A stretch of 64,000 nucleotides of DNA. Source: Neiella litorisoli. Lineage in GTDB: Bacteria > Pseudomonadota > Gammaproteobacteria > Enterobacterales > Neiellaceae. How positions within the stretch are numbered: the first letter of the stretch is position 1; the number at the start of each line of letters is the position of its first letter. The notes beneath the pieces are model-generated. The model was not told the DNA's origin. It made no database searches and saw only the letters and a list, made by a program, of their open reading frames with translations. Below, one piece after another: positions 41,734 to 49,619 of this stretch. The position numbers were made by a program, and so were the translations under genes. The stretch is from the NCBI RefSeq assembly GCF_014773395.1, contig NZ_JACXAF010000001.1:248001-312000 (forward strand). Reading direction: 5' to 3'.

Positions 41734-42123
41734 ATGCAGCAATTAAGCAAGCTCCACCAACTCTGGCAGCTCCTCGTAGGGCTCGGCATTATTCTGTTCG
41801 TGCTATGGCTCGGCAATACCATCAGCAACATGACCGGAGACTACATCCCCGGCTCGATTATTGGCATGGTCTTGCTCGCCACCAGCCTGCAACTCCGAGT
41901 GATCCGTTTGACTTGGGTCGAAGGCGCCGCCAATCAATTTATTCGTTGGATGTCGCTATTATTTGTGCCGATTGGCGTCGGTTTAGTTGAGCAATTAGAT
42001 GTACTCAGCAGTGCGCTGCTGGCCATTATTATCACCTGCATCTTCGCAACTTTGGCGTTGCTCGCCTTGGTTGGCTGGGGTGTTCAGTTAAGTTACAGAT
42101 CATCCGAGCGGCAATCGTCATGA
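41734..42123 (+). CDS. lrgA: CidA/LrgA family membrane protein
   Basis: A 129-residue protein with four hydrophobic segments and the family pattern GLGIILFVLWLGNTIS, IPGSIIGMVLLATSLQL, and SLLFVPIGVGLVEQLD. CidA/LrgA proteins are holin-like and, with LrgB, have been tied to autolysis in staphylococci and to export of small acids such as pyruvate or glycolate in other bacteria. Its stop overlaps the lrgB start (ATGA). No clear ribosome site is seen before its ATG. The role here is open. Confidence 0.87.
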   Translation: MQQLSKLHQLWQLLVGLGIILFVLWLGNTISNMTGDYIPGSIIGMVLLATSLQLRVIRLTWVEGAANQFIRWMSLLFVPIGVGLVEQLDVLSSALLAIIITCIFATLALLALVGWGVQLSYRSSERQSS

Positions 42124-42806
42124 ACTGGGTCTATCTGCCGCTAACCATTGCTGTTTATTGGCTGGCGTTACAACTCTATCGCCAAATCAAAACCCCGCTA
42201 CTCAATCCGGTGCTGGTTTCTATCGGCACGTTAGTTGTCTTGTTGTTACTGGCAGACATAGAGTACGCCGCTTACGACCAGTACAGCCATATTCTTACCG
42301 ACCTATTACAGCCGGCCGTGGTTGCATTAGGTGTGCCGCTGTATTTGCAAATACATACGATCAAGCGCGAGTTACCGAAGATATTAGTCGCCGTGCTCAT
42401 TGCGGTGATTATTGCCGTCGCGTCAACCACCGCCATTGCCGTAGCTCTTGGCGCCAGCGCCGATATCGCCGCATCGTTAGCACCAAAGTCAGTCACCACT
42501 CCCATTGCCGTGTTAATTTCAGAGCAAATCGCCGGACACCCGTCGATCACTGCCATTGCCGTGATCGTTACCGGCTTGGTGGGCTCGGTGATCGGTATTC
42601 CATGGCTGAAAGCGCTACAAATCAACCATCCCAAAGCACAAGGCATTGCCATGGGCTCGGCCTGTCATGCACTAGGCACCGCCCGCATTGTGGAGTTAGG
42701 TGAAGAGCAAGGCGCCTATTCCGCGCTATCGCTGGTGTTTAGCGCGGTGTTCAGCGCCATGCTTTGCCCGCTACTGGTACCGCAAATCGTCGCATTGATG
42801 GTTTAA
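42120..42806 (+). CDS. lrgB: LrgB/CidB family membrane protein
   Basis: A 228-residue protein of the LrgB family with about seven hydrophobic segments and the conserved SLAPKSVTTPIAVLISEQI, VTGLVGSVIGIPWLKALQI, and GMGS-like AMGSACHALGTAR (the SHAxGTA-type motif). It probably works with LrgA as a carrier for metabolites such as glycolate or pyruvate, or as a modulator of autolysis. The four-base overlap with lrgA indicates coupled translation. Confidence 0.9.
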   Translation: MNWVYLPLTIAVYWLALQLYRQIKTPLLNPVLVSIGTLVVLLLLADIEYAAYDQYSHILTDLLQPAVVALGVPLYLQIHTIKRELPKILVAVLIAVIIAVASTTAIAVALGASADIAASLAPKSVTTPIAVLISEQIAGHPSITAIAVIVTGLVGSVIGIPWLKALQINHPKAQGIAMGSACHALGTARIVELGEEQGAYSALSLVFSAVFSAMLCPLLVPQIVALMV

Positions 42807-43146: not shown

Positions 43147-44634
43147 TCACTGAGAAACTTCTACAATCCGTTTCATGTCGGTCATGTACCCGCGTAGGGT
43201 CTTACCGACAATCTCGATAGGGTGGTTGCGAGTGGCTTCGTGTACTTCGGCCAAACGCATGTTGTCCACACTATTGCTCTCAAATTCAATTCCTTTACCG
43301 ATAACTTCTGTGGTCAGTTTAGGCATGAGTTTTTCGCGCAGCAGCGGTACGGCAGCGTGTGAGAACAGGTAGTTGCCGTATTCGGCAGTATCTGAAATCA
43401 CCACGTTCATTTCGTACAGTTTGCGGCGAGCAATGGTGTTTGCAATCAATGGGGTCTCGTGGAGCGACTCATAGTAAGCCGACTCTTCGATGATGCCAGC
43501 GTCGACCATGGTTTCGAAGGCCAGCTCTACGCCTGCTTTGATCATTGCTACCAGCAGAATGCCTTTGTCGAAGAACTCTTGCTCATCGATTTCAACATCA
43601 CATTCTGGTGCTTTTTCAAAGCTGGTTTCAGCTGTTTCTTCGCGCCACTTCAACAAGTTCGCATCATCGTTTGCCCAGTCTTCCATCATGGTGCCAGAGA
43701 ATTCACCGGCAATAATGTCATCCATGTGTTTTTGGAATAATGGAGCGAGTAATTCCTTCAACTCTTCAGCCAAATCATAGGCTTTGATTTTGGCTGGGTT
43801 GCTCAGGCGGTCCATCATCAAGCTGATGCCACCAATCTTGAGCGCTTCAGTCACAGTTTCCCAACCGTACTGAATCAATTTTGCGGCGTACGCTGGGTCC
43901 ATGCCATCGGCAACCATTTTCTCGTGACCGAGAATAGCGCCAGTTTGCAGCATGCCACACAGAATGGTTTGTTCGCCCATCAGGTCAGATTTTACTTCTG
44001 CCACGAATGAAGACGACAATACGCCAGCACGGTCACCACCAGTTGCAGATGCCCAAGCTTTGGCTATGTCGTAGCCAATGCCTTGTGGGTCATTTTCTGG
44101 GTGAACCGCAATCAAAGTAGGTACACCGAAGCCACGCTTGTATTCTTCACGTACTTCAGAGCCTGGGCATTTCGGAGCAACCATCACAACAGTGAGGTCT
44201 TCACGAATTTGCATGCCTTCTTCAACGATGTTGAAACCGTGGGAATAACCCAGAGTTGCGCCTTGCTTCATCAACGGCATAACCGTTTCAACAACATTGG
44301 TGTGTTGCTTATCTGGCGTCAAGTTGCACACCAGATCCGCAGTTGGGATTAGTTCTTGATAAGTGCCAACGGTAAAACCGTTGTCAGTGGCTTGTTGCCA
44401 CGAGGCGCGCTTTTCTTTGATCGCAGCTTCACGCAGGGCGTAGCTAACATCCAGACCAGAGTCACGCATGTTCAAACCTTGGTTCAGGCCTTGGGCGCCA
44501 CAACCAACGATTACGACTTTCTTTCCTTTGAGGACGTTGCAGCCATCTGCAAATTCGTCACGTTTCATGAAGCGACACACGCCAAGCTGAGCGAGTTGTT
44601 GTCTCAGGTTTAGGGTGTTGAAGTAGTTCGCCAT
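43147..44634 (-). CDS. ilvC: ketol-acid reductoisomerase, class II
   Basis: The 495-residue enzyme isomerises and reduces acetolactate and acetohydroxybutyrate with NADPH, the second common step of valine/isoleucine synthesis. The NADPH fold is shown by [21 protein letters not shown], catalytic regions by [15 protein letters not shown] and [11 protein letters not shown], and the duplicated C-terminal domain gives the long class II form of enterobacteria (491 residues in E. coli) rather than the 330-residue class I. It is divergent from ilvY with a 112-118-base shared control region, which suggests induction by acetolactate through IlvY. Confidence 0.97.
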
Positions 44635-44730: not shown

Positions 44731-44752
44731 TGATTCATTTAGGAGCATGGGT

Positions 44753-45637
44753 TTGGACATCCGTTCTTTAAGAATGTTCTGCCACTTGGCAACGAGCTTA
44801 CATTTCGGTCAAACCAGCAGCGCCATGCACGTCAGCGCGCCTACTTTAAGCCGAACCATTCAACGATTGGAAGAAGAAGTAGGGGATGCGTTGTTTAGTC
44901 GTGACAACCGTCGTGTTGAGCTCACCGATGCTGGTCAAAAATTCCTCTTATTTGCCCAACGGGTGCTGCTCGACTGGCAAGATCTCGAACAGCAATTATC
45001 AGCCGATCATCAAGCCCTTAGTGGTCAAATTCATATCTATTGTTCGGTCACTGCGAGCTATTCATTCTTATATGATTTGCTCAATGACTTTCGTCATCAG
45101 CATCCGGGGGTAGATATCAAATTGAGTACCGGTGATCCCGCTGATGCGCTGGATTGGGTAAAAGAAGGCAATGCCGACATCTCAATTACCGCCAAGCCCG
45201 ACAAATTATCGAGCAGCCTAGTATTCCAAAAGCTCGGCGATGCACCGCTGCAGATGGTCGGCCCCGTGGTGCCATGTCAAGTCAGTCAGCAAATCGCCAC
45301 GGATGACATCGACTGGGCGCAATTGCCCTACATTCTTCCTGAGCGCGGTTTAGCCCGCACTCGGCTCGACAAATGGTGTAAGAATCTTGGCTTTAAGCCC
45401 AAAGTGCATGCCGAGGTATCCGGCCATGAAGCCATTGTCTCTATGGTCGCTCTCGGCTTGGGCGTTGGGCCGGTGCCGCAACCGGTGCTGAAAAACAGCC
45501 CATTGCGGAGCAATATCCGAGTTCTGCAGCTACCTCAGTCATTTGGCTCGTTTGAAGTGGGGCTGTGCAGTAGCAAACGCGGGCTGCAAGATCCAAAAGT
45601 TGCAGCATTCTGGGCATTAGCTAAAACATCTTCATAA
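44753..45637 (+). CDS. ilvY: LysR-type regulator IlvY
   Basis: The N-terminal helix-turn-helix is LRMFCHLATSLHFGQTSSAMHVSAPTLSRTIQRLEEEVG. The effector domain has IHIYCSVTASYSFLYDLL and DIKLSTGDPADALDWV, nearly as in E. coli IlvY, and GHEAIVSMVALGLGVG. Together with the divergent ilvC this fixes the identity. It activates ilvC when acetolactate or acetohydroxybutyrate is present. I prefer the TTG at 44753 (product MDIRSLRMF, like E. coli MDLRDLKTF), because AGGAG is 7 bases before it. The ATG two codons upstream lies only one base after that site. Confidence 0.92.
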   Translation: MDIRSLRMFCHLATSLHFGQTSSAMHVSAPTLSRTIQRLEEEVGDALFSRDNRRVELTDAGQKFLLFAQRVLLDWQDLEQQLSADHQALSGQIHIYCSVTASYSFLYDLLNDFRHQHPGVDIKLSTGDPADALDWVKEGNADISITAKPDKLSSSLVFQKLGDAPLQMVGPVVPCQVSQQIATDDIDWAQLPYILPERGLARTRLDKWCKNLGFKPKVHAEVSGHEAIVSMVALGLGVGPVPQPVLKNSPLRSNIRVLQLPQSFGSFEVGLCSSKRGLQDPKVAAFWALAKTSS

Positions 45638-45669: not shown

Positions 45670-45713
45670 AAGCAACCAATCGGCAGTTTGATCCACCGCA
45701 AAAATTTACAAAT

Positions 45714-45732
45714 ACCAATCGTTATCATTGGC
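45714..45732. promoter_or_regulatory. Fur-like box upstream of the porin/FMN-binding/PepSY operon
   Basis: On the minus strand GCCAATGATAACGATTGGT matches the 19-bp Fur consensus at 12 positions, with the central GATAA fully kept. It is also a partial palindrome (CCAAT/ATTGG). It lies about 165-180 bases before the porin ATG. Confidence 0.5.
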
Positions 45733-45895
45733 AACATCTGACGCATTCATTGATCACAATCATAGAAACGCGCATATAAACAACAATCGTTCTTATTTAC
45801 ATTTAATTAAAACCGTCTCATAATCTTCGCCATAACGATCGCAATTTATGCGACGAACGACACACTTTTGCCTAATGAGATATGGAGATTCGCCC

Positions 45896-47143
45896 ATGCG
45901 TTTCACAATCAAGCCGGTCGCAATCGCGTTGACTGCAGCTTTGTCTGCAACCGCTATTGCTGCAGACAAAGAACCTTCCGTTGCAGAATTAATGGAAATG
46001 ATCAAAGCCCAGCAGGCGATGATCGACAAGCAAAACCAGTTGATTGACCAACTGTCGCAAAAAGTAGAGAAAGTTGAAGAAGAAACCGTTGCCAATACCC
46101 AAGCGGTAGAAGCTACCGTGGAAGCCATTGAAACAGCATCAACCGGCGAAGGTACTGCATGGGATCGCCTGAGCTTCGGTGGTTACGGTGAGCTGCACTA
46201 TAACAACCTAGACGGCTCTGGCGGCGCTAGCGACAAGAAAGAAATCGACTTCCACCGCTTCGTGATGTTCACCGGTTATGAGTTTACCGACAACCTGCGT
46301 TTCTTCTCTGAGCTCGAACTAGAGCACTCGCTATCTGGCGACGATAAGCCAGGTGAAGTCGAGCTGGAACAAGCCTATATCGAATATGATTTTAACGACA
46401 ACTACTCCGGTAAAGTCGGTTTGTTCCTGCTGCCAGTTGGTTTCCTCAATGAAACTCACGAGCCTCCAACCTTCTATGGTGTCGAGCGTAACAACGTTGA
46501 AAAGAACATTATTCCTACCACATGGTGGGAAGCGGGTACCGGCGTATTGGGTAAATACGACAACGGCGTCAGCTGGGGTGCTTATGTTCACTCTGGTCTG
46601 AAAACCAGCGCTGACAAGAGCTACAAAATCCGTAATGGTCGCCAAAAAGTGGCCGAGGCGGCAGCAGACGATTTAGCCTACACCGCTAATGTTAAGTACA
46701 CCGGTGTTCCAGGCTTGGAATTGGGCGCAACCGTGCAATATCAAGGCGACATCACTCAAAGTGAAGATCCAGATGCAGGCAGCGCCACCCTGGTTGAATT
46801 CCACGGTGCTTACCAATACGAGCAATTCGGCCTGCGTACCCTGTTCGCAATCTGGGATTTGGATGGTTCAGGACCAAAAGCAATCGGCGCCGATGAGCAG
46901 TATGGTTTCTATGTTGAGCCAAGCTGGCGCATTAACGAGTCATTCGGCGTGTTTGCTCGCTTCAGCGAATGGGATAACCAAGCTGGCGATGACAACAGCG
47001 ATAGCGAATACAGCCAATATGACTTTGGTGTCAATTGGTGGCTGCACCCGCAGGTCGTGCTGAAAGCTGATTACCAGATTCAGGACAACGACAATGGTAA
47101 AGAGCAAGAAGGCGTGAACTTGGGCATGGGTTACCACTTCTAA
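45896..47143 (+). CDS. outer membrane porin with N-terminal coiled coil (OprP/O-like)
   Basis: The ATG with a GGAGATTC site gives a 415-residue precursor with a signal peptide (MRFTIKPVAIALTAALSATAIA). A coiled coil follows (about 25-75: LMEMIKAQQAMIDKQNQLIDQLSQKVEKVEEE), as in trimeric porins. The beta-barrel has DRLSFGGYGELHYNN, FRFFSELELEH-type strands and a closing MGYHF with terminal Phe. It resembles the phosphate-selective porin group, but selectivity is not clear from sequence. It begins an operon with an FMN-binding protein 20 bases downstream and a PepSY membrane protein. A Fur-like box upstream suggests iron control. Confidence 0.83.
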   Translation: MRFTIKPVAIALTAALSATAIAADKEPSVAELMEMIKAQQAMIDKQNQLIDQLSQKVEKVEEETVANTQAVEATVEAIETASTGEGTAWDRLSFGGYGELHYNNLDGSGGASDKKEIDFHRFVMFTGYEFTDNLRFFSELELEHSLSGDDKPGEVELEQAYIEYDFNDNYSGKVGLFLLPVGFLNETHEPPTFYGVERNNVEKNIIPTTWWEAGTGVLGKYDNGVSWGAYVHSGLKTSADKSYKIRNGRQKVAEAAADDLAYTANVKYTGVPGLELGATVQYQGDITQSEDPDAGSATLVEFHGAYQYEQFGLRTLFAIWDLDGSGPKAIGADEQYGFYVEPSWRINESFGVFARFSEWDNQAGDDNSDSEYSQYDFGVNWWLHPQVVLKADYQIQDNDNGKEQEGVNLGMGYHF

Positions 47144-47163
47144 GCCAAGACGTTTAAACCACT

Positions 47164-47700
47164 ATGAAAGCAATCATTACGCTGATATTCCTATTCACTC
47201 TGGCCTCGCCTTTGGCGCTGGCTAAGGGTGAGTACATGACGCAATCGGCGTTTTTGACCCAAGCCTTTGGCGAGTCGGTTCCGACTCGCCAAACCCTCTG
47301 GCTACGCGGCGACCTGAAAAAAGAGGTTACCGATCTGCTGGGCCACGCCTACGGCAAGATCCGCCTGCATTACTGGCAACAAGGCTCCACCACCAGCTGG
47401 ATCCTGGAGCAAATCGGCAAAGAGCGGCCCATTACTGCCGGCTTTGTGGTCGATCAACAGCGTATCGTCCAAGCTCATGTCTTGGTATTCCGAGAATCGC
47501 GTGGCTGGGAAATCAAACGCTCCGCCTTTACCCAACAATTTGAATTTACTGAACTGACCGATGATAATCGACTGTCAAAACACATTGACGGCATTACTGG
47601 CGCCACACTCTCTGTTAACGCGATGAATCGCATGGCAAAGTTAGCGCTTAGACTCGATCAAGAGGTTCAGCTCACCCTTGCGCATCACCAAACTAACTAA
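47164..47700 (+). CDS. periplasmic FMN-binding (flavinylated) protein
   Basis: A 178-residue precursor with a signal peptide (MKAIITLIFLFTLASPLALA). The second half is an FMN-binding domain of the NqrC/RnfG type: GITGATLSVNAMNR near residues 145-158 contains the D-G-I-T-G-A-T pattern in which ApbE attaches FMN to the final Thr. No apbE gene is in the window. The product likely carries electrons in the periplasm between the PepSY membrane protein and another acceptor. It lies in the porin-FMN-PepSY operon; its end overlaps the next gene by 23 bases. Confidence 0.85.
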   Translation: MKAIITLIFLFTLASPLALAKGEYMTQSAFLTQAFGESVPTRQTLWLRGDLKKEVTDLLGHAYGKIRLHYWQQGSTTSWILEQIGKERPITAGFVVDQQRIVQAHVLVFRESRGWEIKRSAFTQQFEFTELTDDNRLSKHIDGITGATLSVNAMNRMAKLALRLDQEVQLTLAHHQTN

Positions 47701-48397
47701 CCGAGTTTTGCTCAACTGGCATCGTCAGGTCGGATTATTTGTCGCCATTTTGGCCCTTAACCTGAGTATTACTGGGGTACTGCTGCAACATACCGAGTTG
47801 TTCAAACTCGACCGCACCTACCTGACGTCGTCTTGGTTGCTCGATTGGTACAACTACCCTGAACCCAAGGTCAGCCTGATTCAGCTCGAGCAGCAAGCTG
47901 TCATACAGGTTGATGATCAGATCCTCCTTGGCGAAACGGTCGTCGGTAGCAGCGATGGGCCATTGTGGGGCGCTGCAGCAACCGACGACTTCATTCTTAT
48001 TGGCAGCGGCTATGGGTTGATTTGGCTGACTCATGAGGGTGAAGTCATCGACCAGATGCCCAGCCCGATTGCTGAGCCCAAAGCGACGCTGGCCCGCACC
48101 GGAGATCAATTTCAAATCGGCACCGATAACGACTGGCTAATCGCCGATCCGGAGTTAGCCGACTGGCAACCTGGACAGGCGCCGGAACAACCGCCGCTAA
48201 GCGTTGAGGCCAGTAGTTTTCGCCATGTTGATTTACCAGCAGCGCTGAGTGTTGGCGTTAGCTTAGAGCGACTGCTGCTAGACCTTCACAGCGGCCGGTT
48301 GTTTGGTTCGATTGGTGTGTTGCTGATGGATTTAGCATCCATCGGTCTGGTTCTTTTAGCCATCTCCGGCTGCTGGCTGTGGCTACGCCGCCGCTAA
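47678..48397 (+). CDS. PepSY-associated transmembrane protein
   Basis: A 239-residue protein starting at a TTG within the FMN-binding gene (AGAGG site 12 bases before). The first hydrophobic segment (LLNWHRQVGLFVAILALNLSITGVLL) contains the His-Arg motif typical of PepSY_TM proteins. A periplasmic domain follows (about 50-200), with an LDLHSGRLFG motif, then a closing helix (GVLLMDLASIGLVLLAISGCWLWLRRR). Two-helix PepSY proteins pair with FMN-binding proteins and are thought to pass electrons across the inner membrane, possibly via heme held by the His residues. The coupled overlap supports a functional unit. Confidence 0.82.
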   Translation: MRITKLTNRVLLNWHRQVGLFVAILALNLSITGVLLQHTELFKLDRTYLTSSWLLDWYNYPEPKVSLIQLEQQAVIQVDDQILLGETVVGSSDGPLWGAAATDDFILIGSGYGLIWLTHEGEVIDQMPSPIAEPKATLARTGDQFQIGTDNDWLIADPELADWQPGQAPEQPPLSVEASSFRHVDLPAALSVGVSLERLLLDLHSGRLFGSIGVLLMDLASIGLVLLAISGCWLWLRRR

Positions 48398-48548: not shown

Positions 48549-49619
48549 ATGTTATCCCCATCCAGTAGCGAAGCGGTGATCCGCCGCCTCTATCAGATCA
48601 CTCAAGACTATGAGCGCGGCTTTGAGCATCAGATCACCGAACTGATCCGCATGGGACTGACACGCTTCAAGCTCGATATCGGCATTTTGTCGCACGTCGT
48701 TGGTGAACTCTATACCGTCGATTACTGTGTCGTGCCAGATGGCATCGAGCTGAAAAAAGGCGATGAGTTTGATTTTAAATCCACCTACTGTGCCATTACC
48801 TGCAAGGCCAAAGGCCCAGTAGCCATTGAAAACATGGGCCAAGATGACCGCTATGCGAGCCACCCAGCGTACCAAGCATTCGGTCTTGAATCGTACATCG
48901 GCATTCCCATTCGTTTTGATGGTCAGGTCTATGGCACGCTGAATTTCTCCAGTGCCATTCCCTACACCAGACAGTTCGAGGAAATTGATATTGATGCGTT
49001 GCAACTAATGGCTTCGTGGATCGAAGTGGAGTTGATTCGGCGCAAACAAGAGCAGCAGCTAGAAGCACTGAACCAAAAGCTCAAGTTCCAAGCTTACTAC
49101 GATAGCCTGACCAATATTCCCAACCGTCGTGGCATGTTTAAACACATGATGAAAGAGCTGAATCGCGCAAGTCGAAACCAAAGCCAAGGCTCGTTGTCCT
49201 TGGTTGATATCGATTTTTTCAAACGCGTCAACGACACCTATGGCCACTCCGTTGGCGATCAGGTTTTGCAGCAAGTGGCCCAAACCATCTCTGAAGCCCT
49301 GCGTGAATATGATTATGTTGCGCGGTTGGGTGGCGAAGAATTTGTTCTTTGGTTTCCTGACACCAACGAGGCCGACAACCTTGAAGTGTGCCGTCGTATC
49401 ATGGCCAGTATTAAGCGGATTGAAAGGCTGCCCGAACCACTAACCGTGTCGATTGGTAGCTGCCAGCTTGACTGCAAAAACTGCAATAAAATCGATGCCG
49501 CTGATACCTTGGCGGATCTGCTGGAAAAAGCCGACAAAGCACTGTACCAAGCCAAAGCGGATGGGCGAAATCGCTTGGTTCGCTATGAGGACATAATTGA
49601 CGTAAAAAAAGAGGGTTAA
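48549..49619 (+). CDS. GAF-GGDEF diguanylate cyclase
   Basis: A 356-residue cytoplasmic protein. A GAF domain (about 15-165; KSTYCAITCKAKGPVAIENM, ESYIGIPIRFDGQVYGTLNF) precedes a short coiled coil (RRKQEQQLEALNQKLKFQ) and a GGDEF domain with active-site GGEEF at about residue 260. The preceding REYD five residues upstream is an intact RxxD inhibitory site. It should make c-di-GMP with product inhibition. Two extra Cys pairs (CQLDCKNCNK) near the C-terminus are unusual and may bind metal or sense redox. The only c-di-GMP receptor candidate seen here is the PilZ protein at 33 kb. Confidence 0.9.
   Translation: MLSPSSSEAVIRRLYQITQDYERGFEHQITELIRMGLTRFKLDIGILSHVVGELYTVDYCVVPDGIELKKGDEFDFKSTYCAITCKAKGPVAIENMGQDDRYASHPAYQAFGLESYIGIPIRFDGQVYGTLNFSSAIPYTRQFEEIDIDALQLMASWIEVELIRRKQEQQLEALNQKLKFQAYYDSLTNIPNRRGMFKHMMKELNRASRNQSQGSLSLVDIDFFKRVNDTYGHSVGDQVLQQVAQTISEALREYDYVARLGGEEFVLWFPDTNEADNLEVCRRIMASIKRIERLPEPLTVSIGSCQLDCKNCNKIDAADTLADLLEKADKALYQAKADGRNRLVRYEDIIDVKKEG

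Follow-up and report, generated by a model that had tools for sequence, protein, structure and literature searches.

PepSY-like flavinylation clusters have been suggested to function in iron reduction and assimilation, and Fur repression has been cited for those of Shewanella oneidensis and Caulobacter (Meheust et al. 2021, PMC8238504). Flavin-dependent periplasmic iron reduction has so far been described mainly from surveys. FoxB-type proteins are ferrisiderophore reductases; in FoxB, conserved histidines at both sides of the membrane bind two haems (PMC13038864). VciB of Vibrio cholerae reportedly serves ferrous uptake by promoting the reduction of Fe(III) (PMC8238504; PMC12004947). At the outer membrane, psp, a Fur-regulated PF07396-like porin of Geobacter metallireducens and Desulfuromonas, was proposed in 2004 to transport iron (PMC545781), and FupA/FupB of Francisella are iron-linked porins (PMC7432831).

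We analyzed a three-gene operon of the marine bacterium Neiella litorisoli within a stretch of 64,000 nucleotides, referred to here as the window. The operon encodes a porin, a periplasmic FMN_bind flavoprotein and a PepSY_TM membrane protein. Like the PepSY-like flavinylation clusters (PMC8238504), it places a PF03929/PF16357 membrane protein beside a flavinylated periplasmic protein, flavinylation being predicted in our case. The published clusters mostly have DUF2271, often together with DUF4198, and are described with three helices, whereas the operon has FMN_bind, a porin and two helices. The word "porin" is absent from the text of PMC8238504, and the operon may be counted within the published tally of these clusters. 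VciB, compared by description only, is a PepSY-like membrane protein as in the operon, but is reported without flavinylation components. psp, also compared by description, resembles the operon porin in its weak phosphate-selective-porin similarity and upstream Fur boxes; unlike that porin, it is not described with a flavoprotein or cytochrome. A literature search revealed no paper combining FMN-binding, porin and PepSY, although its coverage of journals was partial and absence is unproven. The PepSY-like flavinylation clusters, iron reduction by VciB, and FoxB are already known; what appears to be new is the half-propeller cytochrome, the partnership with a porin and the conservation of the Fur footprint.

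Organization of the operon

The window contains, in order, ilvC, ilvY, ~258 nt of intergenic DNA, and the porin, FMN_bind and PepSY_TM genes, all three on the + strand. Features are as follows (window positions).

43147-44634, complement strand: ilvC
44747-45637: ilvY
45707-45733, unstranded: Fur-like site 1, two motif matches that overlap, 45707-45727 (rank 2 of 63,980) and 45713-45733 (rank 1)
45781-45801, unstranded: Fur-like site 2, overlapping the -35 hexamer (rank 3 of 63,980)
45796-45824, + strand: sigma-70-like promoter, TTTACA, 17 nt, CATAAT (10/12 consensus matches)
45896-47143, + strand: outer-membrane porin, 415 aa, with signal peptide, coiled coil (~29-85), 16-stranded barrel and acidic conserved residues
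47164-47700, + strand: periplasmic FMN_bind flavoprotein, 178 aa, with signal peptide (PF04205 above cut-off; relatives aligned)
47587-47607, + strand: flavinylation motif DGITGAT, residues 142-148, with predicted FMN acceptor Thr148 (codon 47605-47607)
47678-48397, + strand: two-helix PepSY_TM protein, 239 aa, TTG start (PF03929 above cut-off, structure model, fold matches)
47720-47722, + strand: His15, predicted cytosol-side haem ligand (65/65 orthologues; aligns with FoxB TM1 and TM3 His)
47789-47791, + strand: His38, at the end of TM1, predicted periplasmic side (64/65 orthologues)
48287-48289, + strand: His204, predicted periplasm-side haem ligand (65/65 orthologues; aligns with FoxB TM4 IHGGR His)

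ORFs and Pfam matches placed the three genes where the original prediction had put them, the last two overlapping. The porin gene starts at ATG 45896 and stops at 47143; a longer in-frame ORF begins at 45848. The last 23 nt of the flavoprotein gene are shared with the PepSY_TM gene, whose TTG start is preceded by AGAGG. This junction is almost unchanged in the other two genomes of the genus. The three-gene operon encodes neither an electron-donor domain nor a dedicated inner-membrane transporter for iron. The 4.3 Mb host genome encodes Fur, a single FeoB, a single ApbE and several siderophore-type receptors; Neiella holothuriorum is a near relative (porin identity 90%).

ilvC and ilvY lie beside the operon in close relatives only. 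A GAF-GGDEF diguanylate cyclase gene lies downstream (48549-49619). It was considered as a part of the system and dropped; its orthologue adjoins the operon in relative L017 but not in L016. Further upstream, two overlapping membrane-protein genes (41734-42806) resemble an LrgA/LrgB (CidA/CidB)-like pair by eye.

Linkage of the three genes across genomes

Among 59 related genomes, the flavoprotein was present in 10. Porin and PepSY_TM genes flanked it, in unchanged order, in all 8 non-host relatives with a full-length flavoprotein match. Scanning 84,980 species genomes with a porin profile gave 80 loci, of which ~70 had all three genes in this order. Because these 80 loci were chosen via the porin, a separate survey was seeded on the flavoprotein, using 274 genomes sampled evenly across the class. 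The flavoprotein was found in 59 of them (about one in five). Within 2.5 kb of it lay the porin in 54, the PepSY_TM gene in 55 and both in 50 of the 59 genomes; in several exceptions a partner was on another contig or slightly past the 2.5 kb limit. Porin and flavoprotein co-occurred in 57 genomes (Fisher p ~1e-45, uncorrected for phylogeny). Conservation of the linkage between the porin and its two partner genes, on which the original prediction depended, is supported across many species.

Some loci showed individual departures. Shewanella sp. MBTL60-007 has an extra lipoprotein-like gene of 267 aa between the flavoprotein and PepSY_TM genes (L067:7989-8792). The flavoprotein match of one relative contains an in-frame TGA (L019:8742-9272), and the PepSY_TM match of another an in-frame TAA (G217:C5:92807-93529). 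A search of plasmids turned up three distant porins and nothing related to the PepSY_TM protein.

Synteny with S. xiamenensis (L093) would place the S. oneidensis orthologue near pckA. A literature search by its presumed locus tags found no paper. S. oneidensis so1188-1190, a Fur-linked PepSY operon, was ruled out as the orthologue; its make-up is different, and we infer that it is of the DUF2271/DUF4198 type. SO1190 is annotated as a Co2+ transporter periplasmic component.

Fur-like sites and promoter

The original prediction had reported Fur-like boxes upstream of the porin. By simple consensus counting, the top upstream score was 12/19, which is unexceptional in the window, where ~63 positions score at least 12. 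Counting was dropped and comparative footprinting was used. At the same place as site 1, L016 has a similar sequence and L017 has none. The TTCTTATTTACATT block at site 2 is kept in all three genomes of the genus, and both promoter hexamers are likewise conserved in three genomes. Sigma-70-like promoters of such score numbered 2 in the region, versus 2.4 expected from shuffling. Site 2 overlaps the conserved -35 element, as expected of a repressor site.

We compared the best Fur consensus match within 300 nt upstream of the porin across species, with a first-order Markov control applied. At least 14/19 was reached in 40% of 75 three-gene loci and in 6.5% of 567 control upstream regions; mean best matches were 13.1/19 and 11.25, respectively. 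A motif matrix was then trained on operon upstream regions of other species, with Neiella-like loci held out. The refined motif was TGCAAATGATAATCATTTGCA, mostly located 60-120 nt ahead of the start codon; because refinement was seeded from the Fur consensus, the motif is no independent proof of Fur. Of the 63,980 positions in the held-out window, the three ranked highest by the matrix were 45713, 45707 and 45781, in that order. The boxes are real, their significance coming from cross-species comparison, and the postulated iron-type control is supported across many species. A Fur-like box overlaps the promoter and is conserved across species, consistent with membership of a Fur regulon.

A score of at least 10 occurred at 1 of 163,880 background positions, which was the window's own site. 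In the same genome, motif scores upstream of three siderophore-type TonB receptors were 13.8, 12.5 and 8.2, and the feoAB upstream region had a weak score of 8.2 (p 0.087 for the region). A pattern search elsewhere in the host genome revealed sites at chance level only, so the host species' own Fur motif is not established.

Flavoprotein and PepSY_TM protein

FMN_bind (PF04205) matched the flavoprotein at 30.7 bits (cut-off 22). The DGITGAT motif noticed in the original prediction is present and conserved across many species: orthologues share a D-G-I/V-S/T-G-A-T core, and G146, A147 and T148 were invariant in 69/69 linked orthologues. The protein thus combines an FMN_bind domain, a D-G-x-S/T-G-A-T/S motif and a signal peptide, the last judged by eye from sequence. 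ApbE was present in 56/59 operon genomes versus 140/215 others (p 1.2e-6). The conserved motif and the enrichment of ApbE in operon genomes indicate that the flavoprotein likely carries covalent FMN.

PF03929 (PepSY_TM) matched the membrane protein at 53.2 bits (cut-off 28.8). Both PF03929 and PF16357 matched all 57 aligned members, with the FMN_bind gene adjoining. A structure model built from 57 sequences (mean pLDDT 91.6) has two helices, at residues 3-37 and 207-238; twelve short strands lie between residues 65 and 166. Over ~105 residues, the all-beta part matched beta-propellers (WDR5, Z 9.5, rmsd 2.6) and 6r5z (Z 8.9), whose three-bladed fragment forms a ring of nine blades on assembly; Z values of ~9 are modest and may reflect a common strand arrangement. 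No closer family was found for this part beyond the generic beta-propeller arrangement. From strand count and high model confidence, the protein is predicted to contain a three-bladed half-propeller (about residues 61-172) and no alpha/beta PepSY domain. Of the "two-helix PepSY protein" originally proposed, the two PepSY_TM helices stood, whereas the PepSY domain did not, as judged from structure prediction and fold matches.

PDB sequence searches with single operon proteins gave nothing useful. The profile of the PepSY_TM family, however, matched FoxB of Pseudomonas aeruginosa (7abw) at E 4e-9. TM helices and haem-ligand-type histidines align: TM1 (His15) with FoxB TM1 and TM3, and TM2 (His204) with FoxB TM4. 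Assignment of the aligned FoxB histidines as ligands combines the published description (PMC13038864) with inference. FoxB is a single chain with four helices and two alpha/beta PepSY domains, whereas the PepSY_TM protein combines two helices with an all-beta domain of 12 strands. With two helices rather than four, a homodimer would be needed. The three conserved histidines suggest that the protein may be a homodimeric b-type cytochrome; the simplest arrangement would be a pair of chains that together restore the core of FoxB and contribute three blades each. The protein looks like one half of FoxB and is better termed a FoxB-like cytochrome of half size that carries a half beta-propeller between its helices.

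Porin

The porin matched Porin_4 at 30.9 bits (cut-off 27) and itself reported only this family; PF07396 (Porin_O_P) was found in 44 of 47 porin relatives at E 1e-3. A porin profile revealed no relative by sequence in the PDB. The structure model shows a coiled coil, as had been predicted, followed by sixteen strands. Its best solved matches were OprP (2o4v, Z 26.3), OprO, PorB and DcaP (6eus, Z 24.2), and it shares the 16-stranded barrel with the trimeric porins OprP/OprO and DcaP.

Conserved residues alternate along strands 1-4 (E99/H101/N103, D118/H120, E139/E141/E143, E154/E156/E158) and continue in a long loop between strands 5 and 6 (N185-E186-T187-H188-E189, E197, R198, E202). Strand alternation, rather than coordinates, suggests that these residues face the lumen. 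Near-invariant residues of the family comprise 18 acidic versus 7 basic, and median barrel charge is -23. OprP is known for an arginine ladder linked to phosphate selectivity, whereas the conserved residues of the operon porin family are mostly acidic. If these residues line the lumen, the pore would favour cations, unlike OprP.

The coiled coil and the linkage data bear on one further possibility, an outer-membrane electron conduit made of porin and flavoprotein, which would reduce extracellular minerals as a flavin counterpart of porin-cytochrome complexes. In its favour, the dedicated porin almost always adjoins an electron-transfer protein and the periplasmic coiled coil could dock partners. 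Against it, an 18-kDa domain would not fit into a 16-stranded OprP/DcaP-type barrel, a single FMN cannot span a membrane, and there is no gene for a partner on the outer surface; we regard such a conduit as very improbable.

Iron genes near relatives and the proposed function

Porin relatives that lack the PepSY_TM gene were found with iron genes nearby. In Thiobacillus/Hydrogenophilales (L036, L054), such a porin lies in a compact island with feoB, a DUF6662 outer-membrane protein, FMN_bind, apbE, a ferritin-like gene, exbB, exbD and a TonB receptor; parts of the feoB/apbE/ferritin island are also found in L045, L050, L055 and L064. In Desulfobacteraceae (L042) the relative lies near a DtxR-type regulator, feoB and a P-type ATPase, in L047 and L062 beside a DtxR-type regulator, and in L089 near a P19 Fe2+ transport protein. 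These neighbours strengthen the iron reading of the operon, although they lie mainly around PepSY_TM-less relatives and represent few independent lineages. In L062, a Kiritimatiellae MAG far from Proteobacteria, the genes for a DtxR-type regulator, porin, FMN_bind and cation-efflux transporter are consecutive (L062:652-3732).

Taken with the computed genes, motif, conserved residues, three-gene linkage, Fur-like control and predicted folds, we propose that the operon is a Fur-repressed, TonB-independent system for reductive iron acquisition feeding FeoB, with a probability of about 0.65. The operon is real, conserved and coherent; its mechanism we infer. Under iron limitation, Fur would leave the promoter and the three genes would be expressed. 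Small ferric complexes or iron ions would pass the outer membrane via the 16-stranded porin with its conserved acidic, histidine-rich patch. Electrons from a cytosolic or quinol donor would cross the inner membrane via a b-type cytochrome of two PepSY_TM chains, with one haem between the His15 pair and a second involving the His204 pair, perhaps with His38. The cytochrome would reduce FMN attached by ApbE at Thr148 of the periplasmic FMN_bind protein. The flavoprotein would then reduce Fe(III), and Fe(II) would enter by FeoB. An iron chelate may be reduced after entering via the porin, as originally suggested.

The same redox chain might instead act on a non-iron metal or substrate, such as Cu(II), or in oxidant detoxification, and be merely co-regulated with iron starvation. 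Other substrates are also handled by members of the FMN_bind, PepSY_TM and Porin_O_P families (phosphate: OprP; copper: CrpH, a PepSY_TM protein involved in copper supply, PMC13038864), which counts against the iron reading, and a P-type ATPase (L042) and a cation-efflux gene (L062) lie beside the porin. Fur-like control in many species, however, and the presence of feoB, ferritin, P19 and DtxR-type genes among the relatives' neighbours make this alternative rather unlikely.

A full-length PepSY_TM protein directly adjoins the host's best siderophore-type TonB receptor (G000:C42:80078-83205). The receptors raise a second alternative: the operon could encode a ferrisiderophore reductase, with siderophore-bound iron entering via separate TonB receptors and the porin only releasing freed siderophore or supplying counter-ions. 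Among solved structures, FoxB is the nearest relative of the membrane helices, and its substrates are ferrisiderophores; the several siderophore-type receptors of the host would also suit this function. Most loci, however, link the operon to a porin and not to TonB receptors, and the full-length PepSY_TM protein (C42:80078) that already adjoins a siderophore-type receptor (C42:81274) belongs to the same genome. We consider a ferrisiderophore reductase quite unlikely.

Implications of the proposed reductive iron acquisition

Returning to reductive, TonB-independent iron acquisition, a more far-reaching version may be offered tentatively, and we would not be surprised if it proved wrong. The paired chains would represent a new cytochrome architecture, rebuilding the di-haem core of FoxB, and their 3+3 blades would close a six-bladed periplasmic propeller that docks the flavoprotein. 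With an acid-lined, iron-selective porin, this would form a complete reductive iron uptake system that is common in Gammaproteobacteria and unnamed.

The operon is found in about one-fifth of the sampled class genomes, yet no paper describing it was found. If the half-propeller cytochrome is as predicted, a four-helix reductase would be assembled from a half-size gene. If the proposed function is true, the operon would give flavin-dependent iron reduction in the periplasm a defined pathway that runs from a pore in the outer membrane to a cytochrome in the inner membrane, and could explain how FeoB is supplied in oxic water without siderophores in many bacteria.
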